From IMG/VR virus record IMGVR_UViG_3300018962_000001, positions 1 to 64,000 of that record: a DNA stretch of 64,000 bases; one strand, written 5' to 3'. This stretch comes from a virus. The position numbers and the translations under genes are program-made. Numbering within the stretch: the stretch's first letter is position 1; each line of letters starts with the position of its first letter. This document shows, one piece after another, positions 450 through 62,974 of the stretch. Under the pieces are notes generated by a model. That model made no database searches. It saw only the letters and a list, made by a program, of their open reading frames with translations, and was not told where the DNA came from.

Positions 450-477
450 AGCTTAGCAAAACCACCGGATATGTCAA
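450..477 (-). promoter_or_regulatory. sigma70-type promoter, phage family
   Basis: TTGACA (477-472) and TAAGCT (455-450), spacer 16 bp, preceded by CCCC. It drives the gene ending at 36. The spacer lacks the GCGC half-sites of the main family, so this is a divergent member. Confidence 0.75.
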
Positions 478-483
478 GGGGTT

Positions 484-741
484 TTAAGAGCGACCGTTCG
501 CACGTTCCGCACCGAAGCGTTCCGCTGCCAGGTTGTACAGGCGCGTGTAGGGATTCTGCGCCGAGAAGGTCACGAATGAACTGGTGACGGAGATCCCGTC
601 ATGGCGGCAGGCCGCTTCCCACACCGCCCGGTGCGTTTTGGACCAATTAATCCGGCTACCCGTCACGATCAACAAGGCTCCGAAGGATTCACGCTGGCGT
701 TTTGTAAGCGGTCGCGGCTGGCTCGTTGGAGTGTTCATCAT
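484..741 (-). CDS. small basic protein, unknown
   Basis: 85 aa from ATG 741, chosen because AAAGGAAT lies just upstream. A longer in-frame start at 783 would sit only a few bases from the -10 box. Lys/Arg-rich at the start (PLTKRQRESF), then a motif NWSKTHRAVWEAA. No recognised family. Single-gene unit with its own promoter at 790-818. Confidence 0.7.
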   Translation of the reverse strand: MMNTPTSQPRPLTKRQRESFGALLIVTGSRINWSKTHRAVWEAACRHDGISVTSSFVTFSAQNPYTRLYNLAAERFGAERANGRS

Positions 742-789
742 CAGATTCCTTTCGCGCTCGGCGATCCCGCCGGTGGTGTGCATGGATGC

Positions 790-818
790 AGCTTACAGGT
801 GGTCGGCTACGAAGTCAA
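790..818 (-). promoter_or_regulatory. promoter for the 741-484 gene
   Basis: TTGACT (818-813), 17-bp spacer, TAAGCT (795-790), preceded by CCCC. The spacer lacks GCGC half-sites. Confidence 0.7.
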
Positions 819-838
819 GGGGTCACAATACTGTTGAT

Positions 839-871
839 GGCTCGGATGCGAGCCACCGCCGCATCCGAGCC
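839..871. other. perfect inverted repeat in divergent intergenic region
   Basis: 12-bp arms (839-850 and 860-871) around a 9-nt loop, in the 285-bp gap between the divergent genes starting at 741 and 1027. It may be a regulator site or an RNA hairpin. Nothing else apart from the two promoters was recognised in this gap. Confidence 0.55.
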
Positions 872-973
872 GCGTCCAGGCGACAGGACCAGCACCCGTG
901 TCCATCTCCCCAAGCGCACGTACGGCCAACCAGCGATTCTGAGGCAACCGCAGCCCTGGTCGGTAATACCCCC

Positions 974-1002
974 TTGACAAGCGCTGTATCATGCGCTATG
1001 CT
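974..1002 (+). promoter_or_regulatory. promoter, phage family
   Basis: CCCCC then TTGACA (974-979), 17-bp spacer ending in TGCGC, TATGCT (997-1002). It drives the 1027-2325 genes. GCGC half-sites lie at both ends of the spacer. Confidence 0.85.
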
Positions 1003-1026
1003 TGGCATAGCTGACAGGAGGACTCA

Positions 1027-1401
1027 ATGGCCCGTATAACCGCAGACATGAAGGCATTTAGCCATCATGGATCGTCCGTGTATCGCGATCGCGTGCCGAT
1101 CGCGGCAGCCGATGAGGTTCTTTTTGGCATTTATCGCCAGAGTTCCATTCACGAGATGGCAATCCGCTGGTATCGCCACGGACGTGAACCCCTGGTTGCC
1201 AGGCTGGAAGCCTTCGCCGATAGCTGGGTGATGTTGACCGAGCTGGCGGAGGTGTTTAGCGCACTCCAACACCTCGCCCACACCCCGATCACCCCGGAGC
1301 AGGTGTGTGATCTCCTCCGATCGCACGGATTTGTTGATCGCACGCCTCGGCAGGAAGCACGCCTCGCCTCAAAAGCTATGAAGGACATCGATCATGGATG
1401 A
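1027..1401 (+). CDS. hypothetical protein
   Basis: 124 aa, mostly helical, no family recognised. ATG 1027 follows CAGGAGGACTCA, a strong ribosome-binding site, about 18 nt after the predicted transcript start. It overlaps the next gene by 8 bp, suggesting translational coupling. Confidence 0.8.
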   Translation: MARITADMKAFSHHGSSVYRDRVPIAAADEVLFGIYRQSSIHEMAIRWYRHGREPLVARLEAFADSWVMLTELAEVFSALQHLAHTPITPEQVCDLLRSHGFVDRTPRQEARLASKAMKDIDHG

Positions 1402-1915
1402 CAAGACGACCGACGCCGCGTTCGAGGACATTCTGCGCCGCGTGCGCGCACGCGATGTAGCGCACGAGCAGCAGATTCGCGATCCCTTCACTCAACTGGC
1501 GGTTGCCCTGGGGCAGTCGCAACATGGCCGTGGATCGCATCGCTACTTCTACCATACGACCAATCCCGACGCCGTGCTCGCGTATAGCCATTACAGCGAC
1601 CCACTGTTTAACCGGGAACGGGGAATTTGTATCTATGGAGCCGACGCGGGTAATCTGACGTGGGTCTATGCCGACCGGCTGCTGCATGCCGATCCTGACA
1701 AATCAGACGCGGCCTGGAAGCAGGCGGTCGAACAGCATGGCAAGGAGCGCACCGCTCGCCGGATCGAAACCTATCTCCGCCTCTACTTTGAGCGTTCCCT
1801 AACACTCGCGTGTATCATCAGTGGGACCCAACAGAGTAATGGGTATCCCTGGTATGCCTACGGCATCCGCTTCCTCAGCGACCAACCAACCCCGCCCGAT
1901 CCGCCCACGGACTAA
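1394..1915 (+). CDS. hypothetical protein
   Basis: 173 aa, unknown. Charged helical N-terminus, then a mixed region rich in Tyr and aromatic residues. Start ATG 1394 lies inside the end of the upstream gene. A large hairpin (1923-1966) follows the stop and may end the transcript. Confidence 0.8.
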   Translation: MDDKTTDAAFEDILRRVRARDVAHEQQIRDPFTQLAVALGQSQHGRGSHRYFYHTTNPDAVLAYSHYSDPLFNRERGICIYGADAGNLTWVYADRLLHADPDKSDAAWKQAVEQHGKERTARRIETYLRLYFERSLTLACIISGTQQSNGYPWYAYGIRFLSDQPTPPDPPTD

Positions 1916-1922
1916 CCCCACA

Positions 1923-1966
1923 TACGCGCAGATTCACGCAAACCTTTCTGCGTGAATCTGCGCGTA
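1923..1966 (+). terminator. large perfect hairpin, probable terminator
   Basis: 18-bp perfect arms (1923-1940, 1949-1966) with an 8-nt loop, directly after the 1394-1915 gene. There is no clear U-tract, so it may instead be an RNA-processing hairpin or a mRNA stabiliser. Confidence 0.55.
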
Positions 1967-1998
1967 CGGCCCACCAGAGCATTGGAGGAATCCCGTTT

Positions 1999-2325
1999 AT
2001 GTTTGCCTACGAGCGGTCATCGAATCCCCTTGATCCCCAGAATCCCCCAACGTACCGCGTGTATGAGCTGGTCAATGGGCGGCAGATCTGGCTCTGCCGG
2101 TCGAATGAGGAGGGAAATGCCCAGCGAATCGTCCGGCTGCTTAACCTGATCGTCGAGGTGGCCCAGGTCGTACGGGCCTATGCTGACCGCGATCTTCCAT
2201 CTGAAGTCTGTCTCTCACTTATCCAGACTCTCGTGCGGACGGCCAACGATCCGGCGGCGGCGGCGGGATCGACACGCGCCCAAGCGCTGCCTGAAGATCC
2301 TCCGCCCGATAGTGCTCCAGCGTGA
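1999..2325 (+). CDS. hypothetical protein
   Basis: 108 aa, unknown. Start ATG 1999 follows GGAGGAATCCCGTTT. Central helix near residues 40-75. The Ala run in the C-terminal third is encoded by a (CGG)n tract at 2251-2265. The last 107 bp overlap the convergent gene 2219-2494, where the same tract encodes prolines. Confidence 0.65.
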   Translation: MFAYERSSNPLDPQNPPTYRVYELVNGRQIWLCRSNEEGNAQRIVRLLNLIVEVAQVVRAYADRDLPSEVCLSLIQTLVRTANDPAAAAGSTRAQALPEDPPPDSAPA

Positions 2326-2494
2326 CGGAATGCACCACGCGCCCATCGGCCACATTCACCGTGTCAAAGCGCAGGTTGGTATTCGGCATCTGCCAGACCT
2401 GGAGGCGGCGCTGCACCTCGTTGGCCCAGGCATCAAAGATCAACACCGCGCCGCCTGGGTCGCGATCTCCGATCGCACGCCACTGCATGGTCAT
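2219..2494 (-). CDS. hypothetical protein, last gene of a leftward operon
   Basis: 91 aa, unknown. Start ATG 2494 follows AAAGGGGAATCCGC and overlaps the previous gene by 4 bp. The C-terminus has five prolines in a row, encoded by the CGG tract shared with the opposite-strand gene. Fourth gene of the 3471-2219 operon. Confidence 0.7.
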   Translation of the reverse strand: MTMQWRAIGDRDPGGAVLIFDAWANEVQRRLQVWQMPNTNLRFDTVNVADGRVVHSVTLEHYRAEDLQAALGRVSIPPPPPDRWPSARESG

Positions 2495-2775
2495 GCGGAT
2501 TCCCCTTTCTGGCGGATCGGTGGTACGGCCAGTGGGCCATTCTCATGGAATCGCCGAGGTCGCCACTCGCGTACATGACGAAACCGAAGGTGCGGAGCTG
2601 CCTGCTGTATCGAGTCAAGATCATCAGGATGGCAGATCAGGAACTCCGGTCCAATGGTCGACTCTGGTATGATCAGCACCTTCCCTGGAATGGCGTGATC
2701 CCAGGTCGCATACCAGATCGTGACGAGATCGAGGAGGGTCCGGTAGGTGTCCAGAATCGAGTCAAGCGTTTGCAT
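2491..2775 (-). CDS. hypothetical protein
   Basis: 94 aa, unknown. Start chosen at ATG 2775 (MQTLDSIL), inside the end of the upstream gene. A longer ORF from 2835 is only the antiparallel shadow of that gene. The second half looks like alternating beta strands (KVLIIPES). Confidence 0.75.
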   Translation of the reverse strand: MQTLDSILDTYRTLLDLVTIWYATWDHAIPGKVLIIPESTIGPEFLICHPDDLDSIQQAAPHLRFRHVREWRPRRFHENGPLAVPPIRQKGESA

Positions 2776-3471: not shown

Positions 3472-3492
3472 GGCGTTCTCGCTGTCGCGTTG

Positions 3493-3521
3493 ATCTTAGC
3501 GCATCATACCGCGCGTGTCAA
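3493..3521 (-). promoter_or_regulatory. promoter, phage family
   Basis: TTGACA (3521-3516), 17-bp spacer beginning CGCGC and ending TGCGC, TAAGAT (3498-3493). Heads the 3471-2219 operon. Confidence 0.85.
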
Positions 3522-3524
3522 GGA

Positions 3525-4949
3525 CTAGAGTCCGACAAAATCTTGGAGGGCGTCGGCAATGTCCTCGTCCAGGGGATCAATGGATTGAGCATCACCATCG
3601 AGATAATTGCAGAGGTAGCGAGTCGTGTCCATCCCGTGGTCATTTTCCTTGATCGGTACTTCTCGCACGGGCCGCCCTTCTCGACCTTGTGGATACACAT
3701 AGAGATCGAATTCCTGGGTGGTTTCCCACGGATGGTTCTTTTTCTCAAGCTCATCATCTTTCTCGACCAGGGCATAATCAAGAAAAAAGAGCCGGGGGCG
3801 CTTATCGCCCGCAACGCGCAGACGACCCTGCACTTTTTGAATCCCGATCTCAATGCGTTTGTCAGCGGGAATATTGGGAATGCCCTCGGCCTCCAGGGTT
3901 TCCCGGCCTTCGCGATCCCAGTCGCAGATAGTGGTTTCAATCGACTCGCCCTCGCTGAGCGCCACAATCAACTTTGCGTGATCGGACACGAGCCGCTGGC
4001 TCATGTAGATCTCGCGGTAGCGGTACGCACGGCCATCCGGGTCAATCGCCCACCACTGACAGACGAATGGGTGCATGAACCCAAAGTCGATGACGCGGAT
4101 ACGTCGCCACTCACGCGGAATCGGGTAGTCGCTGGGCAAGGTGTGGACACCACGTTGAAACTCATACACCGCCCCTTCGGCAGCGACCCATCGCCCATAG
4201 CGCAGGCGATCTTTGCGCACGCCAGTCAACCGATCCAACCGGGCGATGTAGAGTTCTCCGTAGGGCGTCCAGTGCTCCTCGATCTGATTCCACAAGCGCG
4301 GATTGTCGGTGTGCTGTGCGGCGATCATCCGACAGTCTCCGCGATCGCAGCGTTGTTTCAACCAGTGCGTGGGCGGACCGGGGTTACAATCGGCCATGAT
4401 TTGCTGATAGTCCGCCATCCCGTTGCGCAACCGGGTAGTCAGCGACTCCCAATCCTCGGCGGTCAGCTCGGTGGCTTCCTGGACGTAAATAAAATCGTAC
4501 TCGGTCGACATGATCTTGGTGGATTTGTCGATGCCGCCGACATTAAGCATGGAGCCGTTCGGATAGCGATAGCTCTGGCGAATATTGCGCTGCCGGGTGC
4601 CAGCCAGGGGATGGCCGGGTCCCAGCACATGATCTTCAAAGGTTTGGAGCGCGGATTCAGACACGGATTCGCGCGTTTTACGGATGATCAGCCCGCGCGA
4701 TCGGGGATAGCGACGCCCCAGCAACCAGTGGAGCTTTTCCAGGGCCGCACGACTCTTGCCGGTGCCTGCCGGACCACTTAAGAGGACTTCGGGATCACGC
4801 GATTCTTTGAGATCCCACGCCGCGCCATACGGGTGATACTGGCGGTGCTGCGCGCCCTCTTTACGCTTCTGCTCCAGCGTGGCCCGCGCCACATTGCGCG
4901 GCGTCCACCGGGGCAGGGCCGGTTGTTTGGGAGATGATCCGATCGCCAC
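3525..4949 (-). CDS. terL: terminase large subunit
   Basis: 474 aa DNA-packaging motor ATPase and nuclease. The N-terminal ATPase domain has Walker A GPAGTGKS at 59-66 and a Walker B-like FIYVQEATEL at 153-162, with E158 as likely catalytic Glu. The C-terminal RNase H-like nuclease has candidate metal ligands D288 (VIDFG), D343 (ICDWDREG) and D437 (NDHG). Length is normal for the family. GTG 4949 is the first possible start after an in-frame stop. It follows the small subunit gene by 25 bp and is the last gene of the late leftward block; no portal gene is found next to it. Confidence 0.93.
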   Translation of the reverse strand: MAIGSSPKQPALPRWTPRNVARATLEQKRKEGAQHRQYHPYGAAWDLKESRDPEVLLSGPAGTGKSRAALEKLHWLLGRRYPRSRGLIIRKTRESVSESALQTFEDHVLGPGHPLAGTRQRNIRQSYRYPNGSMLNVGGIDKSTKIMSTEYDFIYVQEATELTAEDWESLTTRLRNGMADYQQIMADCNPGPPTHWLKQRCDRGDCRMIAAQHTDNPRLWNQIEEHWTPYGELYIARLDRLTGVRKDRLRYGRWVAAEGAVYEFQRGVHTLPSDYPIPREWRRIRVIDFGFMHPFVCQWWAIDPDGRAYRYREIYMSQRLVSDHAKLIVALSEGESIETTICDWDREGRETLEAEGIPNIPADKRIEIGIQKVQGRLRVAGDKRPRLFFLDYALVEKDDELEKKNHPWETTQEFDLYVYPQGREGRPVREVPIKENDHGMDTTRYLCNYLDGDAQSIDPLDEDIADALQDFVGL

Positions 4950-4974
4950 AACGATTCATTCTTGGGGGGCGTGG

Positions 4975-5526: not shown

Positions 5527-5544
5527 CGCGTTCACCTTTAACGC

Positions 5545-6034: not shown

Positions 6035-6045
6035 CCGGAGGGATT

Positions 6046-13333: not shown

Positions 13334-13362
13334 AGTATAGCGCAAAGATTCGCGCATGTCAC
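13334..13362 (-). promoter_or_regulatory. leftward promoter of a divergent pair
   Basis: GTGACA (13362-13357), spacer starting TGCGCG and ending TGCGC, TATACT (13339-13334). It fires into the 13327-9154 operon. Its -35 is 27 bp from the rightward -35 at 13390. Confidence 0.8.
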
Positions 13363-13389: not shown

Positions 13390-13418
13390 TTGACGTGCGC
13401 GCATAGTTGCGCTATACT
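13390..13418 (+). promoter_or_regulatory. rightward promoter of a divergent pair
   Basis: CCCC then TTGACG (13390-13395), 17-bp spacer with TGCGC at both ends, TATACT (13413-13418). Heads the 13444-15334 cassette. Confidence 0.9.
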
Positions 13419-17172: not shown

Positions 17173-17477
17173 GTTCCATACGGAAAACCGCCGATCTCGT
17201 TCGCCAATTGGCCCAGGAACATCTCGGTCCCTTGGCGGACCTTGATCCGGCGCTGGTCGCGCGGATTGATGCGATTCTTGATGACCAACCAACCGGGCGA
17301 CATGCCCGGTTGGCGATCGAGGCCGCCGGAATCACTATCAGTGACCGTCACCTCCGGGCACGCTGGAATGCGGCCATGCAGCGCCGACTTCGTTGGATGG
17401 TCGCAGCGGCGGCTGCGAATGGGGAAACACCGCTGATTCTCGCGCACGGGTGCGATCAGAAGGATCTGCCGAGATGA
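17169..17477 (+). CDS. hypothetical protein, possible DNA-binding
   Basis: 102 aa, helical. AAGITISDRHLRARWNAAMQRR near residues 60-80 looks like an HTH. ATG 17169 follows GGGAGGAAATGCC and overlaps the upstream stop by 4 bp. It precedes an excisionase-like gene. Confidence 0.75.
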   Translation: MSSIRKTADLVRQLAQEHLGPLADLDPALVARIDAILDDQPTGRHARLAIEAAGITISDRHLRARWNAAMQRRLRWMVAAAAANGETPLILAHGCDQKDLPR

Positions 17478-17713
17478 TCTTTCAAGCGTTGTCGCCGTGG
17501 CAAGCGGCCCATGTCGTGAAGCGGAGTCCCGATGCCATCCGCCGGGCGTATCGATCCGGCAAGCTCCCGGCCCGCAACCTGGGCACCGCAACCCGGCCCC
17601 AGTACGTTATTGATCGGGACGACCTGTTGCGGTGGCACGCGGCGAATCCGCCGCGTGCCACGCGCAGGCAACCCCAGGAGGCTCCTGATGTCTCAGAATC
17701 TTCCCGACCCTGA
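17474..17713 (+). CDS. excisionase-like HTH protein
   Basis: 79 aa. It matches the HTH_17/MerR-like excisionase layout: LSPWQAAHVVKRSPDAIRR (residues 6-24), a wing with SGKLPARNLG, then YVIDRDDLLRWHAAN. Such proteins bind DNA as recombination directionality factors or small transcription regulators. No integrase is in the window, so regulation is as likely as excision. It could bind the shared promoter operators. Confidence 0.85.
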   Translation: MIFQALSPWQAAHVVKRSPDAIRRAYRSGKLPARNLGTATRPQYVIDRDDLLRWHAANPPRATRRQPQEAPDVSESSRP

Positions 17714-18811: not shown

Positions 18812-18840
18812 TTGACGACCTCGGCCCGCTCCGGTAAGAT
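18812..18840 (+). promoter_or_regulatory. promoter, phage family (degenerate spacer)
   Basis: CCCC then TTGACG (18812-18817), 17-bp spacer without clean GCGC half-sites, TAAGAT (18835-18840). Heads 18867-20683. The 130-bp gap around it contains nothing else recognised. Confidence 0.8.
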
Positions 18841-25185: not shown

Positions 25186-25214
25186 TTGACATACGCATCA
25201 ATATACGATAGTAT
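25186..25214 (+). promoter_or_regulatory. promoter, phage family (variant)
   Basis: TTGACA (25186-25191), 17-bp spacer with one TACGC but no terminal TGCGC, TAGTAT (25209-25214). Followed by a 90-nt leader containing a terminator hairpin. Confidence 0.75.
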
Positions 25215-30626: not shown

Positions 30627-30882
30627 TACCGGCACCTGGGTATGCTGGTCCCTCGAACAAGAGGAACGATTCCGTAGCAGCATGGGCATGAACGGCTATA
30701 TTCTCGCGGTCCATCTGCAAGCTAGGGACTTCGGGGGTAAGGACGACCGGACTCTCTGCGGCATTGATACCAGCGGTGCGTGGACCTTTCTCTGGCATGC
30801 GTACCCACCCGATCAGTTTATTGGATGCCTCCGCTGTATGCGATCCTACCACGCCTGGAAACGTCGCCACGAAACCCCTTGA
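30595..30882 (+). CDS. hypothetical protein with CxxC
   Basis: 95 aa. TLCGIDTSG and CLRCMRSYHAW suggest a zinc ribbon, as in phage proteins that start their ribbon with TLCG. The stop TGA (30880-30882) lies inside the -35 box of the next promoter. Confidence 0.75.
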   Translation: MIPQSDIPNTDTGTWVCWSLEQEERFRSSMGMNGYILAVHLQARDFGGKDDRTLCGIDTSGAWTFLWHAYPPDQFIGCLRCMRSYHAWKRRHETP

Positions 30883-30907
30883 CAAGCGCGCATATGTACG
30901 CTATTGT
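30879..30907 (+). promoter_or_regulatory. promoter overlapping upstream stop codon
   Basis: CCCC then TTGACA (30879-30884), spacer AGCGCGC...TACGC, TATTGT (30902-30907). Heads the single gene 30932-31474. Confidence 0.85.
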
Positions 30908-35400: not shown

Positions 35401-36148
35401 ACAGGAGCGCACGACCCGCAGCGGTCGGCGAGGGACCGAGGACGTTCCAAAACAGGACGCGCCCGGCCCCTCGTCGTTGGCGGCAGATCTGCCAGGCTTT
35501 GCGGTCGTAATTGGGGCAGGAATCAAAGGGCACCGCGATCTTCAATTCTTTCTCAAACGGCAACGCATACTCGATTACCGTGGCGCGACCGGGATCATCC
35601 ACATGCCGTCCGACCTGCACGGCATAAAAGCGGGCAGCGGGCATACCGGCTTGCAGTCCCCGCGTTAACACCCCCGATCCCGCCGCCGACCAGACCTCAT
35701 CAAACGGGCCATAGGTCTCCCAGACCTGCCGCGCCGCCCGTGCAATCGCGGCGTGCGCCCCCGCTCCGGCCCCGCCGAACTCCATATAGTGCGCGCCCTG
35801 CTCCTTGCAGTAGAGCTGGCATTTGGCCTGCACATGACTCAAGTAGCCATGTGGAACCTGGAAGATCCGCGCGCCGAGGGCTTTGGCTTCGAGCGTGCGC
35901 GGATGTGGCTCCTTGCGCTTTGCCACAAAGATCGTCGCGCGGCGGCCTGTGATCCGCGCACAGGCCGCCAGCGCCAGCTGTGCGCCGCCATACGCGGGCG
36001 AGGCATAGGCCACTTCCGCGTAGCGGGTAAACAACTGGATGAGATACCGCCCTTTGGTTCCCCCCGGCAGGCGATCGTCGCGAACCACGGCAATGCCCTG
36101 ATGATCCTCGACGATCGGCACGGTCTCATAGATCGCAGCAGTGGTCAT
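35366..36148 (-). CDS. PLP-dependent fold II enzyme (ACC deaminase / D-cysteine desulfhydrase-like)
   Basis: 260 aa, shorter than the usual 320-340. GGTKGRYL near 29-36 puts Lys32 as the PLP Schiff-base residue (compare GGNKxRK), SPAYGGAQ near 50-57 replaces SxQSNH, and AAGSGVLTRGL is the PLP-phosphate loop. Such enzymes act on amino acids such as Cys, Ser or Thr. It overlaps the ParB-methyltransferase gene by 4 bp, which suggests a joint role, perhaps DNA modification. Substrate unknown. Confidence 0.82.
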   Translation of the reverse strand: MTTAAIYETVPIVEDHQGIAVVRDDRLPGGTKGRYLIQLFTRYAEVAYASPAYGGAQLALAACARITGRRATIFVAKRKEPHPRTLEAKALGARIFQVPHGYLSHVQAKCQLYCKEQGAHYMEFGGAGAGAHAAIARAARQVWETYGPFDEVWSAAGSGVLTRGLQAGMPAARFYAVQVGRHVDDPGRATVIEYALPFEKELKIAVPFDSCPNYDRKAWQICRQRRGAGRVLFWNVLGPSPTAAGRALLSSASASKSSVG

Positions 36149-38277
36149 AATTCCTCGCCATAGCGTCCTTCCGGCACCACCGGCGCGGCATGCCACGCTC
36201 CGGCGGACTGAATCGCGGACGGAATCGGATCAGCCACCGTGGGATCGGCAGCGGAGTCATCATAGGTGCCGGTCGGCACCTCGGCTCCGGTTTCCTCATC
36301 CACTTCGGTATCGTCCTCAATGTCGCCAAACTCGACCGGCCCGACCCACTCGGTCGCCTTGCGCCAATCGCCCTTGATGAAAATGAGGACGTTCTGATGA
36401 CTCTTACCCAACTTCCTCGCTTTTTCAAACTGACGCCCCACGCGCACGGCCAGCGATCCGATCGGCGTGACAAAGATGGCCTCATTATACAAGCGTGCCC
36501 CGGCATCTTCAAACGCCTGGATCGTGTGGCTCACAAAGTTGTGGTAGTGGCCGTCTTTATCGCGGACATCGCCAACCACAAAACACGCAAAGCGATCGGG
36601 CCGCAGCCGGGCGACCGCATGCGCGATAATTTCTCGGTAGATCGTGTGAAAATCCGCATAACTCATATTAGAAATATCACGGGGATCGTCCGAATAGACC
36701 TCCAGATCGGCATAGGGCGGACAACTGAAAATCAGATCAGCCTCAAAGTCCGGCCCCACCAGATCCGGCAACGTCCGCGAGTCGCCGCAATGCCAGATCG
36801 GCGTCGGGTCATCCGGGCGCAGGATCGATTCGATCTGGGATCGATTCGCGGCAACCTGCTCCGGGCGTAAATCAATGCCGGTATAGTGACGGCCCAGGTA
36901 GCCTGCGACGATTCCACGCACCGATCCCCCGGCAAAGGGATCAAGAATCTGCCCACCTTCCGCACAGAACCAGCGATACGCCAGCTCGGTCAGCACCGGG
37001 TCGAAGACGGACGTGCCGGTTTGCGACAAGCCCTCACCGGTCTGTTGGTTTATGTAATGGTCCCTTTGGAATTCCTCGGTCGTGAGCGGGCGGCCCAACT
37101 CCCGCTCTTTTTCGCGCTTTTGCTTATAGTAGCTCGGATCACGGCCCGAATCCGAGGTAAACAGCACGCCCGATGTATCGCGGGGAGCCTGTTTGCCGCT
37201 GGTCTTCATCCAGGCAGAATTCGGGCCGCCGCCGCCGCCGGGCGTGATCGCCTTTTCGCGTCGCCGGGCCTCACGATCGGTCCCCTCGCCTTCGGCCATG
37301 CGTGCCGAAAGTCCTCCGCCCCCGGCAGCGAGGCGATTGGACCCAGAAATGCCCTTGCCGTTGCCAATCGTATGTTCGCCCTTCATCAGATCTTGCCCGA
37401 AGGTGCGGCCATAGGACCGGGCCGCCCGTGCGCCTTGGGGCGAGTGCGCGTCCTCCCCGTCGCTGTCCGGCGGCGCATCAGCCTCTGCGCCGTCATGGTC
37501 CAATCGAGCCGCATACGCCTTCCGATCCCGGCGATACAGCTCCGATTCGCCACTGAGATTCTGGAGATTCGGGCCGCGCCCCAGCTCGCTCTGGATACCG
37601 AGTTTTAGCCAGGCTTTCTTGCGATCCGACCAATATCCTTGGCGGGCGTCGAGCACCGAGAAGGGCGGTACGCCAAACCGATCCGCCAGGGTTGCGCGCG
37701 CGGCTTCGGTGCTGGGCGTCGGAGCGGTCGCTGAGGAATCCGATCCAGAGTCATCCTGCGATTCCAGGTGCTCCAGCATATCGATCAAGGCCCGATCTTC
37801 GGCGGCCAGCTGGTCGTACAGCTCGGTATATTGTTCCTCGTCGCGAACCGCCAACGCGGCGATCGGGTCGAACGTCATCAAGGCCAGACGTTCTTCTTCC
37901 TGGCTGAGATGGACATAGATGACATCGATGAGCGGCAACCGGCGGCGCTGCGCGAGACTGACCCGGAGATGGCCGTCCACGATAAAGCCGGTTACCTCAT
38001 TGACGATGATCGGGGCGATAATCCCGATCCGGTTCATAATTTCCGTGAGGGCATCTTGTTGAATGCGAGTATGGATGCGCCAGTTTTCCGGGTGATTCAG
38101 CAGCGTATCCGGCGGTACCTTGACGAGCTTCACGATCTTGCTTTCCCACAGGGCGGCAAAATCGTCCGGGTCCGCCTGTTGGTGGGCCAGAATCTCGTCG
38201 ACGCGCTCCTCGCTGAGATCATGGATCTCAATCACGGGATGATCCGTGTCGTCCGATTCGGGGGCATGCGTGGTCAT
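36145..38277 (-). CDS. ParB-domain / DNA methyltransferase fusion
   Basis: 710 aa from ATG 38277 (MTTHAPESDD). Residues about 45-150 are a ParB/sulfiredoxin-like domain with IIVNEVTGFIVDGHLR as its nucleotide-binding core. Residues about 400-640 are a beta-class amino-methyltransferase: DPFAGGSVRG as motif I near 440 and SCPPYADLE as motif IV near 516, where SPPY-type motifs modify cytosine N4 or adenine N6. A Gly/Arg-rich linker joins them, with a five-Gly run from a CGG tract at 37224-37240. Probably protects phage DNA from restriction. Confidence 0.9.
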   Translation of the reverse strand: MTTHAPESDDTDHPVIEIHDLSEERVDEILAHQQADPDDFAALWESKIVKLVKVPPDTLLNHPENWRIHTRIQQDALTEIMNRIGIIAPIIVNEVTGFIVDGHLRVSLAQRRRLPLIDVIYVHLSQEEERLALMTFDPIAALAVRDEEQYTELYDQLAAEDRALIDMLEHLESQDDSGSDSSATAPTPSTEAARATLADRFGVPPFSVLDARQGYWSDRKKAWLKLGIQSELGRGPNLQNLSGESELYRRDRKAYAARLDHDGAEADAPPDSDGEDAHSPQGARAARSYGRTFGQDLMKGEHTIGNGKGISGSNRLAAGGGGLSARMAEGEGTDREARRREKAITPGGGGGPNSAWMKTSGKQAPRDTSGVLFTSDSGRDPSYYKQKREKERELGRPLTTEEFQRDHYINQQTGEGLSQTGTSVFDPVLTELAYRWFCAEGGQILDPFAGGSVRGIVAGYLGRHYTGIDLRPEQVAANRSQIESILRPDDPTPIWHCGDSRTLPDLVGPDFEADLIFSCPPYADLEVYSDDPRDISNMSYADFHTIYREIIAHAVARLRPDRFACFVVGDVRDKDGHYHNFVSHTIQAFEDAGARLYNEAIFVTPIGSLAVRVGRQFEKARKLGKSHQNVLIFIKGDWRKATEWVGPVEFGDIEDDTEVDEETGAEVPTGTYDDSAADPTVADPIPSAIQSAGAWHAAPVVPEGRYGEEL

Positions 38278-44370: not shown

Positions 44371-44766
44371 ATGGCAACAGGCAGTAGCCCGCGGACGACC
44401 CGGACGATCCGGGCACGCGGACGCTTAATTACTTTCCCAGAAAAGCTCAAAGCGCTGGGACCCAATGATCAAGCGCGCGGCCAGGCGCTCGGCTTGTCGC
44501 GGCGCTGTGTCCAGGCATACTCGCAAGGCGAGTTTCCGCACGGGTTAGAACAATTGATGTTATCGCCCGACTTGCTGCGCGCCTTGGCCGATGATGCCGA
44601 CCGTATCCTGCTCGAAAATGCGGAACAGATCGCCGACCAGGCCAATCCAGAGTCGAACGCTGATAGCACGACCAGCGACTCCGCGCAGGACGGCAGCCTC
44701 ACCGAGTCCCCGGAGACCGAGCAGCCCGTGCTCGCGGTCCAGGACTCCCCGGTCGATCCTACGTAG
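44371..44766 (+). CDS. HTH transcription regulator, candidate phage repressor
   Basis: 131 aa. Residues about 20-62 look like an HTH (FPEKLKALGPNDQARGQALG, then SRRCVQAYSQGEFP as recognition helix). The C-terminal half is acidic and disordered (ESNADSTTSDSAQDG). It stands alone upstream of the replication module, where lambda-type phages carry their regulators. It has its own family promoter and is followed by a terminator, so it is a candidate binder of the shared GCGC operators. Confidence 0.78.
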   Translation: MATGSSPRTTRTIRARGRLITFPEKLKALGPNDQARGQALGLSRRCVQAYSQGEFPHGLEQLMLSPDLLRALADDADRILLENAEQIADQANPESNADSTTSDSAQDGSLTESPETEQPVLAVQDSPVDPT

Positions 44767-46498: not shown

Positions 46499-47860
46499 AT
46501 GGAAAAAGCACTACCGCACAATGAAAGCGCGGAACGGGCCACGCTCGGCGCAATCCTCCTGGATCGCGATGCCATCATCCCCGTCGCTTCCTGGTTGGAC
46601 GAGTCACATTTTTATGTCGAAAAGCATGGGTGGGTGTACGCGGCGCAGGTAGCCTGCCTTAAGCGCCATGTGCCACCGGATCTCGTCAATGTTGCCGAGG
46701 AGTTACGCACGCGCGGGCAGTTAGATCAGATTGGTGGCGTTCCCTTCCTCGTCGATCTCTCCAATAGCGCACCGACCTCCGTTCATGTGGAGTATTATGC
46801 GCACGCGGTTTGGAAAACCGCGAGGAATCGTCGCGGGATCGCGGCTGGTGGGCAGATCGCCGCGCTCTATTACGAGGAAGATCGCGACTCCGAGGAGCTT
46901 GACCAGGAAGCGCGGCGGCTGCTCCACGCCGCCCAGTCGGAACAACTCGACACCGATCTTCAAACGATCGCACAGGTTGTTGCCGAGCGCGAAGCGCAGT
47001 TTAACAAGCCTGTGGAACCGGCGATCTCGACGGGGTTGATCGATCTGGACCGGCTGCTGAATGGTGGCTATCACAAGGACGATCAGATCATCATTGCCGC
47101 GCGGCCCGGTATCGGCAAAAGCTCGCTGATGGGGCATACCATGCGCCATAACCTGTTTTTGCCAGCGCCGCCGCGCATCCATACGTGCGAACTGGAAATG
47201 CGCAATCTGAACCTGCTCGACCGCATGCTCGCGTCCGATACCGGCCTGGATCTGTCCTTGTTTCGGCGCAATGACTTTACCGATGAGCAACTCGTCATGG
47301 TCATGGAGGCCATGTATCGGTACGAGGGCGTGCCGCTCTCACTCGATCAACGCATGAGCGTGGATATTGATGGCCTGTGGAAACGGATTGAGCTTCAGGC
47401 CAGTCGCGTTGGCAAGCCGGATCTCTTGTTCGTTGATTATCTCCAACTCGTCGGCGGCGGCTTTGTGAAAAAGGGTCGATCGGCAGCGAACCGCCAGGAA
47501 GAAGTGGCGTATGTGTCGGCACGACTCAAAGCGCTGGCACGCGAGTTAAATATCCCCGTGGTGGCGTTGGCGCAATTATCGCGGGAGATCGAGAAACGGG
47601 GCGGCCCGCCCATGCTCGCCGACTTACGCGAATCCGGCGCGATCGAGCAGAACGCCGATATAGTGATTCTGGCCTGGCGTCCCGATCTGGAAGAAGAAAC
47701 GCAGGAGGAGCGGACCGAACGGCAACGGTTAAAAATTCCGGTTCGCGTCGAACTGATTGTGGCAAAACATCGCAACGGACCAACCGGCGCGGTGAACGTG
47801 CTGGTGCAGGATTGGGATGGGGTCTGGTTAAACGCATCCGATCGGGTTGATCAGTACTAA
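46499..47860 (+). CDS. dnaB: replicative DNA helicase, DnaB family
   Basis: 453 aa, normal DnaB length. N-terminal helical domain (1-105) starts with the typical HNESAERATLGAILLD. RecA-like motor: STGLIDLDRLLNGG at 177-190, Walker A ARPGIGKS at 201-208, LLFVDYLQL as Walker B near 312-320, then QLSREIEKR and DLRESGAIEQNAD. Unwinds DNA at the fork as a hexamer. Start ATG 46499 follows the initiator stop with a one-base overlap (TAAATG). Confidence 0.97.
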   Translation: MEKALPHNESAERATLGAILLDRDAIIPVASWLDESHFYVEKHGWVYAAQVACLKRHVPPDLVNVAEELRTRGQLDQIGGVPFLVDLSNSAPTSVHVEYYAHAVWKTARNRRGIAAGGQIAALYYEEDRDSEELDQEARRLLHAAQSEQLDTDLQTIAQVVAEREAQFNKPVEPAISTGLIDLDRLLNGGYHKDDQIIIAARPGIGKSSLMGHTMRHNLFLPAPPRIHTCELEMRNLNLLDRMLASDTGLDLSLFRRNDFTDEQLVMVMEAMYRYEGVPLSLDQRMSVDIDGLWKRIELQASRVGKPDLLFVDYLQLVGGGFVKKGRSAANRQEEVAYVSARLKALARELNIPVVALAQLSREIEKRGGPPMLADLRESGAIEQNADIVILAWRPDLEEETQEERTERQRLKIPVRVELIVAKHRNGPTGAVNVLVQDWDGVWLNASDRVDQY

Positions 47861-48459: not shown

Positions 48460-50355
48460 ATGAAGTGTTTGGTTCTTCGTTCCCTGATGCTGGTCAGCGT
48501 GCTGGCCCTACTGATCAGCATCTCGTCCACCCACCCCCCAATCGCCCGCGCGGCATCCGCGAATTTACTCTGGAAGCCGTATTTACAACAACTGACCGAT
48601 ACCGGCGTGGTCGTCCGGTGGACGACCAAAACAGGAACGACCTCGGTGGTCCGCTATCGAACCGGGAGCGACGCGCTCGCCTCGGCATCGGGCACGCCAC
48701 GGACGATTGCCGCCTTGGGCGCGCAGATGCATCGCGTTGCGTTAACCGGCCTGCGTCCGAACACGACCTATACGTATGAGATCGTCACCGATGGAGAAAC
48801 GTTGTGGCCGGACGGCGTGATGTCCTTCCGCACCGCTCCCGCGCGCGGGAGCGGCACGCCGGTCACATTTGCCGCGTTTGGGGACATGGGCAAAGGCACG
48901 ACGAGTCAACGCCTCCTGCGGGATCAGATGGCTGCCGACTCGTTGTCGTTCGTGCTGTCCACGGGCGACAACGCCTATGATGCCGGAACGTATGCGGAGT
49001 TTGACACAAAGGTCTTCCAGATCTACGGCGACGTGTTCTCCAGGGCAGCGTTCTTTCCGACTCTGGGCAATCATGACTATGCAACCAGCAGTGGTGCCCC
49101 GTATCTCGATCTCGTCAGCCTGCCGTACCAGGCGCTGCGCGCGAGTGATCACGAACGGTATTACTCGTTTGACTATGGCAATGTGCATGTCGTCGCTCTC
49201 GATACGAATGCTCCCTTGAATGTGACCGATAGCGCCGCGACCGATGATATGTTTGACTGGCTGCGGGCGGATCTCGGGGCGACGCAGCAGCCCTGGATTA
49301 TTGCGGTCACGCATCATGCGCCGTACTCGACGGGATCGCATGGGTCGGACGCGCGCGTGCGATCCAAGTTGGTCCCGATCTTTGAGCAGTACGGCGTCGA
49401 TCTGGTGTTAAGCGGCCATGATCATATTTATCAACGGAGCAAGCCGCTGCGCGGCGGCGTGGTGACTCCGATTGCGCAGGGCGGCATTCCCTATATTGTC
49501 ACGGGCGCGGGTGACGCCGCATTGTATGCCTGCGGGACCGCCGAGTGGGTTGTCGTTTCGTATTGCGCGAAGCCGTATGGAATCTATAACCGTATCCGCG
49601 TGGCAGGCGATCAGCTGGTGATTGAGGCGATTGATAATACCGGCGTGCTACGGGATTCCTATACGATGGGAGAGGCAACGCCGCCGCCGGGCATTCCCGT
49701 GCCCGGTACGATCCAGGCCGAGGACTATCGTGTTGGTGGGCCACAGGTAGGCTACGCGGATAGTACCGCAGGGAATAGTGGCGGTGTGTATCGCACGGAT
49801 GACGTGGACATCCAGGCAACCAACGATCCGGCGGGTGGTGGCTACAATATCGGGTGGATGACCGCCGGGGAATGGCTGGCGTATGACATCGAGGTGACCA
49901 CGCCGGGAATGTATCAGCCGTCGCTTCGCATCGCGACACCGCATAGTGCCCGGCAGGTGAGTCTGGTCGTTGATGAAGTCAGCTCGCCCCCCGTGATCCT
50001 CCCCACGACGGGTGACTGGCAAACCTGGACCACCGTTCGCGCCGATCCGATCAGCCTTACGGCTGGGCGGCATACGCTCCGCATGGTGGTCGATACCCCC
50101 AGCCAGAACATAAACTGGATTCGCCTTGATCTGGTCCCGCCAACCCCGACTCCCGCGCCAACCCAGACCGCAACGGCGACGACCGTTGCCACGGAGACCG
50201 TGGAGCCAACGGCCACGGCGACGGTGACCGCTTCCCCGACGAGGACGCCCACTCCTACGGTCGCGCCAACTTCGACCCCTGTGGTCTTGCGGTTCCCACT
50301 GGTGACCGATCCCTACCCGCGTCCTGAGGAGCCACCCCCGTATCCCGCCCCGTAG
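48460..50355 (+). CDS. secreted purple-acid-phosphatase-like enzyme with CBM6-like domain
   Basis: 631 aa from ATG 48460 (GTGGAGGCTTTG upstream; a TTG at 48439 is rejected). Signal peptide about 1-31. Domains: fibronectin-like N-terminal domain of purple acid phosphatases (35-125), metallophosphatase (130-390) with FGDMGKG, STGDNAYD, LGNHDY, THHAPY and SGHDHIYQR, a CBM6-like beta sandwich (415-545, starting IQAEDYRVGG), then a Thr/Pro-rich linker. It would release phosphate outside the cell. Odd cargo for a phage, and likely of host origin. Confidence 0.9.
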   Translation: MKCLVLRSLMLVSVLALLISISSTHPPIARAASANLLWKPYLQQLTDTGVVVRWTTKTGTTSVVRYRTGSDALASASGTPRTIAALGAQMHRVALTGLRPNTTYTYEIVTDGETLWPDGVMSFRTAPARGSGTPVTFAAFGDMGKGTTSQRLLRDQMAADSLSFVLSTGDNAYDAGTYAEFDTKVFQIYGDVFSRAAFFPTLGNHDYATSSGAPYLDLVSLPYQALRASDHERYYSFDYGNVHVVALDTNAPLNVTDSAATDDMFDWLRADLGATQQPWIIAVTHHAPYSTGSHGSDARVRSKLVPIFEQYGVDLVLSGHDHIYQRSKPLRGGVVTPIAQGGIPYIVTGAGDAALYACGTAEWVVVSYCAKPYGIYNRIRVAGDQLVIEAIDNTGVLRDSYTMGEATPPPGIPVPGTIQAEDYRVGGPQVGYADSTAGNSGGVYRTDDVDIQATNDPAGGGYNIGWMTAGEWLAYDIEVTTPGMYQPSLRIATPHSARQVSLVVDEVSSPPVILPTTGDWQTWTTVRADPISLTAGRHTLRMVVDTPSQNINWIRLDLVPPTPTPAPTQTATATTVATETVEPTATATVTASPTRTPTPTVAPTSTPVVLRFPLVTDPYPRPEEPPPYPAP

Positions 50356-53220: not shown

Positions 53221-53249
53221 TTGACATATGCGTATATCTGCGCTACACT
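53221..53249 (+). promoter_or_regulatory. promoter, phage family
   Basis: TTGACA (53221-53226), spacer TATGCGT...CTGCGC, TACACT (53244-53249). Heads 53283-57477. Confidence 0.9.
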
Positions 53250-57477: not shown

Positions 57478-57485
57478 TATGGGTC

Positions 57486-57514
57486 TTACCGAGCGCACAT
57501 AATTGCGCTATACT
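57486..57514 (+). promoter_or_regulatory. promoter with weak -35, intact operator
   Basis: TTACCG (57486-57491), spacer AGCGCA...TTGCGC with inverted GCGCA/TGCGC, TATACT (57509-57514). The spacer is conserved although the -35 has decayed, which argues that the spacer has its own function. Heads 57548-58207. Confidence 0.82.
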
Positions 57515-57547
57515 AGACCGGACGTACCGTGATTCAAGGAGGGCTGT

Positions 57548-58207: not shown

Positions 58208-58254
58208 ACCGGATCGGCGCGGCGATCGTCAGAGTCATACAAAGGAGCCGGAGC

Positions 58255-59887: not shown

Positions 59888-60726
59888 CTCATCCTGACAT
59901 CCCCCGGAGCATCCGGCGTTGGCTGGAAGAACGTGGCTGGTATGGGTCCGTGAGGAATCTGAATCGCAATCAGCTCGATCTGGTCAAAGGGTCGATCCTG
60001 CGGCATGGCCGACTCTCGCTCCATGCGCCCCACTCCCGTGCGCTTTATGTCGAATGGTATGGGCCGGACCCACGGATCGGTGGGCGCATACGCTGGAGTG
60101 AAAATCTCCACCTGTCGGTGCATGCAGGCCTCGTCCATCTGCACCTTTCTGTCCAGGGACTCCTGCGGGAACCACGTGACCCCCGGACACCACGACTCTG
60201 GCGGGGCGAGAAGCGCTACTACGGGGATCGTGAGTTGAGTGTCCAGCTCGCCTACGATCGTGATTGCATCACGCCCCTTGGCGTGTACTACACCCTCTGG
60301 ACCGCTGATGACGACCTGTGGGAGCAACGACCGCGCTGGCGGCACGGCGTGATCTGGCCCTTTGAGACTCTGTTTGGGGCAATGGATGTGCAGTGGCGTG
60401 ATGTGCGCCGAACAACGCTGGCAATCCCGCTGCCGGAGCGCACATACACGGCGACTGCGGTGTATCGCGAGGGGATCTGGACCTGGCGGCGGTTGCCCTT
60501 CTATCGCAAACGCCTGGTGCGAGTCGAGGTGACCCCCGATCTCCCGATCCCGTATCCAGGGAAAGGCGAAAATAGCTGGGATGGCGGCGAACGGGGCATG
60601 GAGGACTTTTCTGGACCCTACCAGACCGATCATGAGGCGGTGGGGGCAATCGTGCAAACGATCCTGCGCGATCGCATGCGCTACGGAGGAGCGGACTGGC
60701 AACCCGCAGAGTTTACCGAGTCGTAA
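59884..60726 (+). CDS. hypothetical beta-rich protein
   Basis: 280 aa from ATG 59884 (ATGA overlap). Rich in Trp, Tyr and Arg and in predicted strands (LHLSVHAGLVHLHLSV). The N-terminus resembles a helical docking motif (SIRRWLEERGWYG). Unknown function. A perfect palindrome follows the stop. Confidence 0.78.
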   Translation: MTHPDIPRSIRRWLEERGWYGSVRNLNRNQLDLVKGSILRHGRLSLHAPHSRALYVEWYGPDPRIGGRIRWSENLHLSVHAGLVHLHLSVQGLLREPRDPRTPRLWRGEKRYYGDRELSVQLAYDRDCITPLGVYYTLWTADDDLWEQRPRWRHGVIWPFETLFGAMDVQWRDVRRTTLAIPLPERTYTATAVYREGIWTWRRLPFYRKRLVRVEVTPDLPIPYPGKGENSWDGGERGMEDFSGPYQTDHEAVGAIVQTILRDRMRYGGADWQPAEFTES

Positions 60727-60727
60727 G

Positions 60728-60749
60728 CGGGTATGAGCGCTCATACCCG
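60728..60749. terminator. 22-bp perfect palindrome after the cassette
   Basis: Arms 60728-60738 and 60739-60749 with no spacer, immediately after the stop at 60726 and 3 bp before the next -35. It may be a terminator or a protein-binding site. Confidence 0.55.
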
Positions 60750-60752
60750 TCC

Positions 60753-60781
60753 TTGACATATGCGCCATCTTGCGCTACACT
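60753..60781 (+). promoter_or_regulatory. promoter, phage family (best consensus)
   Basis: TTGACA (60753-60758), spacer TATGCGC-N5-TGCGC, TACACT (60776-60781). Heads 60810-62934. Confidence 0.92.
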
Positions 60782-60809
60782 GGCCGCGATCACGGAGGTG
60801 TGTGTAACG

Positions 60810-61625
60810 ATGGCAGGAACATGGCGACCCACAGATAAAGAGTTGTTCGAGTTGACGCGCAGCGAGCTGGCCGCTCGTACCGGGCACTCAACCCGGCAGA
60901 TCGGGCGATGGCGGGGAGCTGCGCGTCAACGGCTACGGGTCCCTGCGGACATGGACCCCATCTTTGACTCCCAGGGCCGGGTCACGGGTACCCGTCCGAC
61001 GCGGATCGAACAGCGTCCTCAGGAACCGATCCCCTACGTCCCACCCCTTCGTCCTGAGCCATTTGTGCCGCCGCCGCCGGTCATTTCTGGCGGACGTGCC
61101 CCCCAATCGCCCCCAGACACCCTCCGTACCGGAGGCGGATCACCATCCGTCGATCGTGAGTCCGCGACTCAGCCGATCACCTTGGACGATCTCTTAGCCG
61201 CTGATCCCGGCCCGTCCAGGCCAGCAACCCCCCCAGCAACGTCCCCGGCAGCACCCGGTCGTCCCCCCCGGACAGGCCCACCAGCAGCCCCCCGGACACG
61301 TCCTATGGACCAACTCCCGGACACCGCCCGGTTTTCGAGCCAGAGCCAGGACCAACCCCTGCTGGCACCCCTGCTTGGCCGGTTGGCGGCTCGCGTGCAA
61401 CGACCGACCAGGCGGGCCACCCCGCCTGATCCGTTGGTGAGGGTGCTGGTGACACGAGGCCGATCGTTCGTGATTGCGGTCGGGTGGCTCGCGGTGGTGC
61501 TGGTGCAGGGGCTTGGGCTTGGAGCCAGCCGGGGGTGGTTTCTCTGGCAGGGCTGGGGGGATCGGAAGTGGTTAGTCCTGGCAATGCTGGTGACCTTGAT
61601 TCTGTGTAGCGTCTGGATCTTTTAG
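60810..61625 (+). CDS. membrane-tethered HTH protein
   Basis: 271 aa. N-terminal HTH (about residues 16-40, SELAARTGHSTRQIGRWRG), a long Pro/Ala/Arg-rich disordered linker (70-205), and two TM segments at the C-terminus (about 219-240 and 253-270). The order is like tail-anchored transcription factors or anti-sigma-type sensors. It could tie phage DNA to the membrane or sense envelope state. ATG follows CGGAGGTGTGTGTAACG. Confidence 0.83.
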   Translation: MAGTWRPTDKELFELTRSELAARTGHSTRQIGRWRGAARQRLRVPADMDPIFDSQGRVTGTRPTRIEQRPQEPIPYVPPLRPEPFVPPPPVISGGRAPQSPPDTLRTGGGSPSVDRESATQPITLDDLLAADPGPSRPATPPATSPAAPGRPPRTGPPAAPRTRPMDQLPDTARFSSQSQDQPLLAPLLGRLAARVQRPTRRATPPDPLVRVLVTRGRSFVIAVGWLAVVLVQGLGLGASRGWFLWQGWGDRKWLVLAMLVTLILCSVWIF

Positions 61626-61634
61626 GAGGGGCTG

Positions 61635-61916
61635 ATGGCGATTGGCGATCCGGCATGGATCAAACAGACCGAGGTGTGGCGCAGGCGGTTTCAAACCCTC
61701 GCCGATGCGCTGTCCGCCGAGCTTGCGGACGTGCCCCATGATGTGCTGCTCCGGGCCGAGCGTGATGGCTGCCAATCGATGGCAGATGATCTCCAAGCGC
61801 AGCTTGACTCGGCGCGGGCATCCCAAGAAGGAATCATACATGATCTCACGCCGAATGATGCTCAAGTTCCTCGCGAGTCTCGTTCCCAGCCTGGCGCTGG
61901 GAACGAAGCAGGCTGA
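61635..61916 (+). CDS. hypothetical helical protein
   Basis: 93 aa, helical, unknown. ATG 61635 follows GGAGGGGCTG. Its last 77 bp overlap the start of the Tat-secreted protein in another frame. Confidence 0.68.
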   Translation: MAIGDPAWIKQTEVWRRRFQTLADALSAELADVPHDVLLRAERDGCQSMADDLQAQLDSARASQEGIIHDLTPNDAQVPRESRSQPGAGNEAG

Positions 61917-62256
61917 GGCGAAGCCAACGCGCCCGGTCGTCCGGCCCGGCTTTGCCGCCCATTACCGGCCCGGCAAGATGGAACAGGTCGCGAAAAACCG
62001 GGGCTTGCCGCGGGTAAAACATATGGCCGCCAGTCCGCACCATGCGATCGGAACCTGGGTGACGGCAGAACACCCGACGAAAGGCATCCGCATTAAGGTG
62101 TTGATCGTGGACTGTCCCCAGCCGCAGCATTGGCAGCGGATCGTGAACAAGGGGATCGTCTTAGAGTTCGACTTCAAAACCGCCCAAATGCTGTATAACA
62201 TTAAGCGGGTCAATCAAAAGGCTCCCCGCGACTGTCCGATCGTGGTGTACGGATAG
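61840..62256 (+). CDS. Tat-exported RlpA-like double-psi beta-barrel protein
   Basis: 138 aa from ATG 61840, following GAAGGAATCATAC. Twin-arginine signal SRRMMLKFL at residues 3-11, hydrophobic core, AEA cleavage near 27. The mature part (HMAASPHHAIGT, VLIVDCP, FDFKTAQML, CPIVVYG) matches the RlpA/expansin-like barrel, including the VDC core with the catalytic-type Asp. RlpA-type proteins bind or cut cell-wall glycans. Export by Tat means it acts on the outside of the infected cell. Confidence 0.76.
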   Translation: MISRRMMLKFLASLVPSLALGTKQAEAKPTRPVVRPGFAAHYRPGKMEQVAKNRGLPRVKHMAASPHHAIGTWVTAEHPTKGIRIKVLIVDCPQPQHWQRIVNKGIVLEFDFKTAQMLYNIKRVNQKAPRDCPIVVYG

Positions 62257-62262
62257 AAAGAG

Positions 62263-62934
62263 ATGGGCGTGACCGATCAGGCAACGCAGGAGCGCTGGCT
62301 CTATGGTGGTGATCCCGACGCCGTTCCGACGCAGGATGACATCACGCATGAGCATTTTCGCACGCCGCTGTGGGTGATTGATGCGGCCATCCGCTTAATC
62401 ACCTGGATTCCCTCCGATTGCCCGCTCCGCATCTTGGATGCTGGAGCGGGCAATGATGCCCGCTGGGGCGTGGGAGCCAAGACTCGCTGGCCGTCCTCGC
62501 AGCTCACGGCAGTCGAGGCCCGTGCGGTTCCGGCGGCGGCGGCGGTGGATCGGTGGGTCCATGCCAGCCTCTTTGATTCCTGGGACCCGGAACCGTACGA
62601 TCTGATCGTGACCAATCCGCCGTTTAGCCGGTCTCTCGATTGGGCACAGTGGTGTATCGCGCACTGTGCCCCCGGTGGAACGATCCTGCTGTATATGCGC
62701 AACGCATTCGGGCACGGCTGGCGACGCTATTCGCAACTGCATCGCCAGCAGCCGTTTGCAATCGAGGGGAAGCTGGTGCAACGCCCCGTGCATGAACATG
62801 GCTCGTCCGACCGCGCGCAGGAATATAGTTGCTACTACTGGCGTGATCCCTGGCCCAACGCCACCCCCGATCCAATCATTAAATGGCTCAGTCGCGTGGA
62901 TCTGCCCCCCGAACAACAACAATCCTTTCTATAG
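62263..62934 (+). CDS. class I SAM-dependent DNA methyltransferase
   Basis: 223 aa. SAM-binding motif I ILDAGAGND near 57-65, acidic end of beta2 in LTAVEAR near 82, catalytic NPPF near 117 (adenine-N6 or cytosine-N4 type). No separate target-recognition domain is obvious, so it may be sequence-relaxed or a non-DNA methylase. Ala run at CGG tract 62531-62546. Start by ATG 62263 after GAAAGAG. Confidence 0.83.
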   Translation: MGVTDQATQERWLYGGDPDAVPTQDDITHEHFRTPLWVIDAAIRLITWIPSDCPLRILDAGAGNDARWGVGAKTRWPSSQLTAVEARAVPAAAAVDRWVHASLFDSWDPEPYDLIVTNPPFSRSLDWAQWCIAHCAPGGTILLYMRNAFGHGWRRYSQLHRQQPFAIEGKLVQRPVHEHGSSDRAQEYSCYYWRDPWPNATPDPIIKWLSRVDLPPEQQQSFL

Positions 62935-62945
62935 CCTGGGATGCC

Positions 62946-62974
62946 TTGACGTATGCACTATTGTGCGCTATACT
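62946..62974 (+). promoter_or_regulatory. promoter, phage family
   Basis: TTGACG (62946-62951), spacer TATGCAC...GTGCGC with inverted GCAC/GTGC, TATACT (62969-62974). Heads 63010 to beyond the window end. Confidence 0.9.

Follow-up and report, generated by a model that had tools for sequence, protein, structure and literature searches.

Sigma-70-type promoters with a conserved spacer in the genome of an uncultivated jumbo phage

The early promoters of phage T4 are built from UP, -35, TGn and -10 elements and show a consensus beyond these standard elements, whereas at the middle promoters of the same phage, which depend on MotA and AsiA, a MotA box takes the place of the -35 element (PMC2988021). 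In cluster A mycobacteriophages of the L5 type a repressor acts on operators and on stoperators that lie mostly away from promoters (PMC9283540, PMC6550527), and the operators of MerR-family regulators are found within promoter spacers of 19-20 bp (PMC8113463). Canonical RNA polymerase has no known base contacts above -15, spacer sequence can change promoter strength without known contacts, and in mix-and-match promoters one element can add to the strength of others (PMC2613000). The region from -35 to about -15 is generally held to be free of base-specific polymerase contacts. Here, we describe a class of promoters with a conserved 17-bp spacer in the virus record IMGVR_UViG_3300018962_000001 (204,685 bp, G+C content 60.8%), positions 1-64,000 of which constitute the window analyzed in detail. 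Fifty-four promoters with about 10 bits of spacer information in a single genome provide an unusually clean test case: either polymerase reading extends beyond what is assumed, or the bases are read by a phage factor. At the same time, the sites provide a ready list of probable early operons in an uncultivated jumbo phage.

In its working the T4 early class comes closest, though no sequence relationship is claimed. Both are found in large phages, a phage-encoded RNA polymerase was not detected in the one studied here, and dozens of sigma-70-type promoters carry extra consensus in either case, the early timing being deduced from gene content in ours. T4 possesses TGn (T-15), whereas the promoters described here have C-15, CCCC upstream of the -35 element and GC at -26/-25, spacer bases for which the T4 class has no described counterpart. 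The T4 middle promoters are similar in combining a phage-specific element with a host -10 and, on the reading favoured below, a phage factor, and a protein related to sigma region 4 is encoded here as well; they differ in that the -35 is retained here and the extra bases reside inside the spacer, and homologues of MotA or AsiA were not found in the phage. As in L5-type phages, one short site is present in many copies across the genome, but copies outside promoters are near chance here and no integrase is among the Pfam families listed. The dyad-like character of the spacer element is reminiscent of MerR operators, which likewise lie between -35 and -10, but in spacers longer than the 17 bp found here, and N4-like hairpin promoters are set apart by the missing covariation of the arms. 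By the features tested, we file the class as a variant of phage-specific early promoters and not as a stoperator, MerR, MotA or hairpin type.

Consensus and genomic distribution of the promoter class

Sites were selected by their hexamers only (TTGAC, 18 free bases, TAnnnT), such that spacer bases played no part. Genome-wide, 55 pairs were found at 17-bp spacing and 0-8 at each other spacing between 12 and 23 bp, the runners-up being 19 bp (8 sites) and 12 bp (6 sites). The spacers of the 55 sites contain 9.98 bits of information, compared with a mean of 0.01 and a maximum of 0.58 bits in 500 sets of random 17-mers from the same genome. A left arm, W-R-Y-G-C, occupies spacer positions sp1-5 (-29 to -25), with W at sp1 in 48/55, Y at sp3 in 49/55 and G at sp4 and C at sp5 in 49/55 sites each. 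The right arm, TGCGC, covers sp13-17 (-17 to -13; T 40/55, G 44/55, C 54/55, G 48/55, C 42/55). Since sp7-12 are almost unconstrained in spite of the 10 bits, individual positions appear to be constrained, rather than the sites being recent copies. Upstream of the -35 element there is a tendency to CCCC. The exact pattern occurs 22 times in the phage when preceded by CC and 27 times without this restriction.

A 33-column matrix retrieved 58 sites with at least 12 bits and 0, 0 and 1 sites in three Markov shuffles; as it was trained on its own sites, the spacer information of the hexamer-selected set is the unbiased figure. The spacer motif is present in 54 of the matrix-scored sites, 22 of them inside the window. 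They exhibit the features of sigma-70/sigma-A promoters, i.e. a TTGACA-like -35 (TTGAC is retained in 49/54) and a TAnnnT -10 about 17 bp apart, and differ from extended -10 (TGn) promoters in that G-14 (48/55) is accompanied by C-15 (54/55). Almost all motif sites are intergenic, usually with a start codon 20-60 nt downstream.

All 25 promoters of a preliminary description of the window are present, one of them 10 bp from where it had been placed (44860, not 44870). The GCGC-containing spacer ascribed to all of them was recovered in 22, one (25186) being partial, and is lacking at 477(-), 818(-) and 18812. The decay of the -35 at 57486 (TTACC) with retention of the spacer was likewise borne out, and imperfect -35 elements also occur at 13362(-) (GTGAC), 50430 (TAGAC), 24764 and 29022 (both TTGAT). 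The sites are listed below from -35 start to -10 end; scores are matrix bits over the full element, and "spacer" denotes the spacer part alone.

974..1002, plus: motif promoter, 41.3 bits; next gene 24 nt downstream
3493..3521, minus: motif promoter, 35.7 bits
13334..13362, minus: motif promoter, imperfect -35 GTGACA, divergent with 13390; 22.1 bits, spacer 14.3
13390..13418, plus: motif promoter, 40.6 bits
15222..15250, plus: motif promoter, 39.6 bits
20698..20726, plus: motif promoter, right arm CGCGG, 34.2 bits
22022..22050, plus: motif promoter, 39.4 bits
24764..24792, plus: motif promoter, -35 TTGATA; 33.7 bits, spacer 16.2
25186..25214, plus: partial motif promoter, right arm TACGA, 30.6 bits
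26797..26825, minus: motif promoter, divergent with 26847, 24.9 bits
26847..26875, plus: motif promoter, 34.6 bits
29022..29050, plus: motif promoter, -35 TTGATA; 36.1 bits, spacer 17.3
30879..30907, plus: motif promoter, right arm TACGC, 36.2 bits
31471..31499, plus: motif promoter, 41.5 bits
35036..35064, plus: motif promoter, right arm TGCCG, 33.3 bits
44291..44319, plus: motif promoter upstream of the XRE-like gene 44371-44766, 23.3 bits
44860..44888, plus: motif promoter, 34.1 bits
50430..50458, plus: motif promoter, imperfect -35 TAGACA; 33.4 bits, spacer 18.2, the top spacer score overall
53221..53249, plus: motif promoter, 38.8 bits
57486..57514, plus: motif promoter, decayed -35 TTACCG, spacer kept; 17.6 bits, spacer 15.2
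60753..60781, plus: motif promoter, 35.6 bits
62946..62974, plus: motif promoter, 34.8 bits
450..477, minus: CCCCTTGAC promoter with a TGC extended -10 and a 16-bp spacer that lacks the GCGC motif
790..818, minus: CCCCTTGAC promoter without spacer motif, spacer score -9.8
18812..18840, plus: CCCCTTGAC promoter without spacer motif, spacer score -0.5

Over the full record, in which 322 genes were called with a simple hexamer model, 45 motif sites lie in 1-129 kb, nine after 176 kb and none in the 47 kb of the structural region (129-176 kb), an outcome with a chance of about 8e-7 under even placement. The motif thus fronts non-structural operons on both sides of this region, in line with the genome-wide regulon proposed earlier, and nearly all non-structural genes of the phage appear to be turned on from these sites. 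Minus-strand operons lacking the motif are preceded by TGnTAnnnT (8 observed, 1.8 +/- 1.2 expected) and TRTGnTAnnnT (5 observed, 0.4 +/- 0.6 expected), and no enrichment of TTGAC was found before them. This TGn-bearing set includes the operon that opens the structural block; 477(-), one of the eight, also has a -35. The others are extended -10 promoters without a -35 element:

5949, 7937 and 44126 (window), minus: TGn promoters before minus-strand operons
130238, 159136, 175940 and 192557 (record), minus: TGn promoters

The phage therefore appears to have two promoter classes, and the gene content points to early use of the motif class and late use of the TGn class. The promoters before 175940(-) and 192557(-) have AGGCAC plus a C-rich stretch downstream in common. 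On the minus strand at 198.4-203.0 kb, several genes have near-identical motif promoters and leaders (TATCAAATRAATC) and perhaps represent a recently duplicated family.

Reading of the spacer

How the two arms relate to each other is ambiguous. In the preliminary description the half-sites were about 10 bp apart in some promoters and an inverted repeat in others; both geometries fit (inverted 3.57, direct with a shift of 12 3.54, direct with a shift of 10 2.62), and they are inseparable because GCGC is self-complementary. At the best dyad register no covariation of the arms was found (z -0.7), which argues that the bases themselves are read and not a hairpin. Left and right arm do not compensate for each other (p 0.44). 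GCGC occurs in the genome at 1.02 times expectation, and taken together neither a hairpin nor methylation is favoured. A spacer-only scan yielded 110 hits with at least 11 bits. Once the 41 known promoters and about two dozen hits on the strand opposite to them are set aside, roughly 40-45 detached sites remain, compared with 31-37 in shuffles, i.e. near chance.

In a Mann-Whitney test, the five sites with an imperfect -35 have stronger spacers (14.3-18.2 bits; p 0.008-0.011). The scored sites without the motif, 818(-), 18812, 85740, 200852(-) and 201358(-), all carry CCCC (5/26 versus 0/32, p 0.014). Both results suggest that the spacer adds strength. Together with the near-chance number of detached copies and the lack of known polymerase contacts above -15 they favour a positive element, and we tentatively consider it most likely, with a probability of roughly 45%, that these early promoters are a class specific to the phage and that their spacer acts positively through polymerase plus an extra factor. 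The sigma-A holoenzyme would read -35 and -10, while the extra factor, be it a DNA-binding protein of the phage or a polymerase that the phage has modified, would touch the spacer around -26/-25 and -16/-15, contacts that would lie about one turn apart, such that phage promoters would be preferred over those of the host. The motif-less CCCC promoters might be used first, by the unmodified polymerase. A protein resembling sigma region 4 (85795-86178), encoded behind a motif-less promoter, could help early activation or a later switch to those TGn promoters that lack a -35 and serve other operons. A bolder and rather doubtful proposal is that a hitherto undescribed factor, encoded by the phage or a polymerase modified by it, contacts specific bases at -26/-25 and from -17 to -13. 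This would define a new -35/spacer/-10 type, with the sigma region-4 protein aiding a later shift to -35-less TGn promoters.

Several points weigh against the positive element. The compensation tests were post hoc and small, and the CCCC test is biased by the score cut-off; rank correlations between spacer and hexamer scores were not significant (p 0.17-0.54). A dyad placed over promoter elements equally suits a dimeric repressor. Chloroflexota promoters trend weakly to T-17 G-16 (T/C)-15 G-14, so that TGCGC may in part be a variant of a host extended -10. Finally, searches of IMG/VR brought up no relative that includes an early region; the queries (terminase, major capsid, sigma-4, ParB-methyltransferase and WGR/ligase proteins) matched structural-region contigs, unrelated sigma domains and short fragments.

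Among the alternatives, a dimeric helix-turn-helix (HTH) protein of the phage that binds the spacer dyad (approximately WRYGCR-N6-YGCGCW) and closes down the early regulon, either late during infection or while the phage is in a carrier state, fares best, although we regard it as less likely than the positive element. The symmetric fit is indeed best for an inverted repeat with its centre between sp9 and sp10, many sites score on the opposite strand too, and HTH candidates are at hand (44371-44766, 17474-17713 and the HigA-like 124609-125016). Direct-repeat fits are about equal, however, and the strongest spacers stand beside the weakest -35 elements, which is unexpected for a repressor site. 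Free-standing sites barely above chance, together with the lack of integrases or recombinases among the families listed from Pfam scans of the phage proteins, also speak against a repressor operator and against the multi-operator immunity system envisaged earlier.

Comparison with host promoters and other genomes

Less probable still is a reading by the polymerase alone, in which the host sigma-A holoenzyme, or spacer DNA shape and the response of the spacer to supercoiling, favours these bases and TGCGC is a variant extended -10; the promoters would then just be optimal ones for the host. Beyond the Chloroflexota trend mentioned above, it could draw on the influence of spacer sequence on promoter strength (PMC2613000) and on one Anaerolineae metagenome-assembled genome with a handful of near-identical spacers ahead of ordinary genes, and the phage class may have been built upon a weak host tendency. 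On the other hand, the spacers of Chloroflexota promoters contain 2.0-2.4 bits in three genomes and 1.6 bits in a fourth, that is 4-6 times less than in the phage, and there is no counterpart to GC at -26/-25 (10/51, 6/30 and 4/31 promoters). Furthermore, the motif-less minus-strand operons of the phage itself carry T-15, which argues against C-15 being no more than a TGn preference of the host.

The exact CC-preceded pattern was detected in 89 stretches among 84,980 species genomes, on no more than two contigs per genome; without CC, 17 copies were found in 400 Chloroflexota genomes (control 4) and three in 397 Actinomycetota genomes. A loose motif scan of IMG/VR was swamped by chance matches, and stricter scans returned 9 and 23 contigs, each with a single copy. 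A multi-copy class was found neither in the sampled species genomes nor in other IMG/VR contigs. The spacer is conserved far above ordinary promoters, as had been claimed, and neither host-like spacers nor a host GCGC pattern, the two outcomes named at the outset as speaking against a dedicated reader, were seen in the sampled genomes, a result that is provisional with regard to the true host. The idea that the motif is a host promoter type, which arose from the Chloroflexota matches, was dropped after the counts in 400 genomes and the spacer logos.

Conservation of the spacer as a hairpin or cruciform, or as a GCGC methylation site, can largely be dismissed, since the palindromic GCGC arms and several phage-encoded DNA methyltransferases are outweighed by the missing covariation, by a left arm that is frequently ATGC or ACGC and by the ordinary frequency of GCGC.

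Promoter arrays of other kinds exist in other phage records. In IMGVR_UViG_3300021514_000002 (154.9-170.0 kb; L027, L297, L298), about ten TTGAC-N17-TAnnnT promoters have inverted-repeat spacers, whose arms differ and yet complement each other (TAGCCCA-AGGA-TGGGCTA, TAGTGCA-GGGA-TGCACTA, TAGCGCA-GGGA-TGCGCTA). Pairing is maintained despite sequence change (z 3.0 for the 11 sites of L027, 2.3 for 90 sites of the record), a pattern that a spacer hairpin or cruciform would need. Dense arrays of the TTGAC-N17-TATAAT type in L071/L072 (259-kb and 40-kb records), L064 and L111 have their own conserved bases near -10 and the start (L072: GTGCTATAATGCACTTACACTAAC) and inverted repeats in some spacers. 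The motif described here is not present in L027, L064, L072 and L111.

Candidate regulators and further features of the record

The three regulators named in the preliminary description are weak candidates; two lack a family match and the third falls under the cut-off.

44371..44766, plus: XRE-like HTH by eye; no Pfam, PHROG or PDB match
17474..17713, plus: HTH_17/excisionase-like; Pfam E 3.3e-5 (below cut-off), phrog_66 E 4e-6
60810..61625, plus: HTH-like N-terminus by eye, proline-rich linker, hydrophobic C-terminus; no family match

The predicted fold of 44371-44766 (pLDDT, the predicted local distance difference test, 55) is too poor for a structure search, and 60810-61625 is unlikely to be a free regulator judging from its sequence. 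The HigA-like protein lies outside the window. The product of 85795-86178 (127 residues) matches region 4 of RpoD (E 5e-9) and contains no other sigma region; its model has a mean pLDDT of 69, higher across the HTH, and the gene is preceded by two tandem promoters, one with and one without the motif. Through binding to -35 DNA or to the flap of the polymerase, the protein could favour -35-less promoters. In T4, TGn/-10 promoters evade AsiA, which blocks -35 (PMC2613000); the parallel is one of effect only.

Landmark genes of the record are:

3525-4949, minus: terminase
46499-47860: DnaB
166079-167140, minus: major head protein
36145-38277, minus, and 120926-121903: methyltransferases

The closest relatives of the terminase stem from Thermobifida and Streptomyces phages (40-50% identity), whereas relatives of the head protein exist in IMG/VR, and one of 400 Chloroflexota genomes contains a strong match to it; Chloroflexota or Actinomycetota are our guesses for the host. 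Among phage records, neither 40-60 kb of the window at the DNA level nor the capsid found a match. A metallophosphoesterase resembling purple acid phosphatase and equipped with a CBM35/CBM6 module (48460-50355) is odd cargo for a phage. An intergenic long inverted repeat at 1917-1980 (ATACGCGCAGATTCACGCA...TGCGTGAATCTGCGCGTACG), the spacer-site score of which is due solely to its GCGC, is probably a bidirectional terminator.

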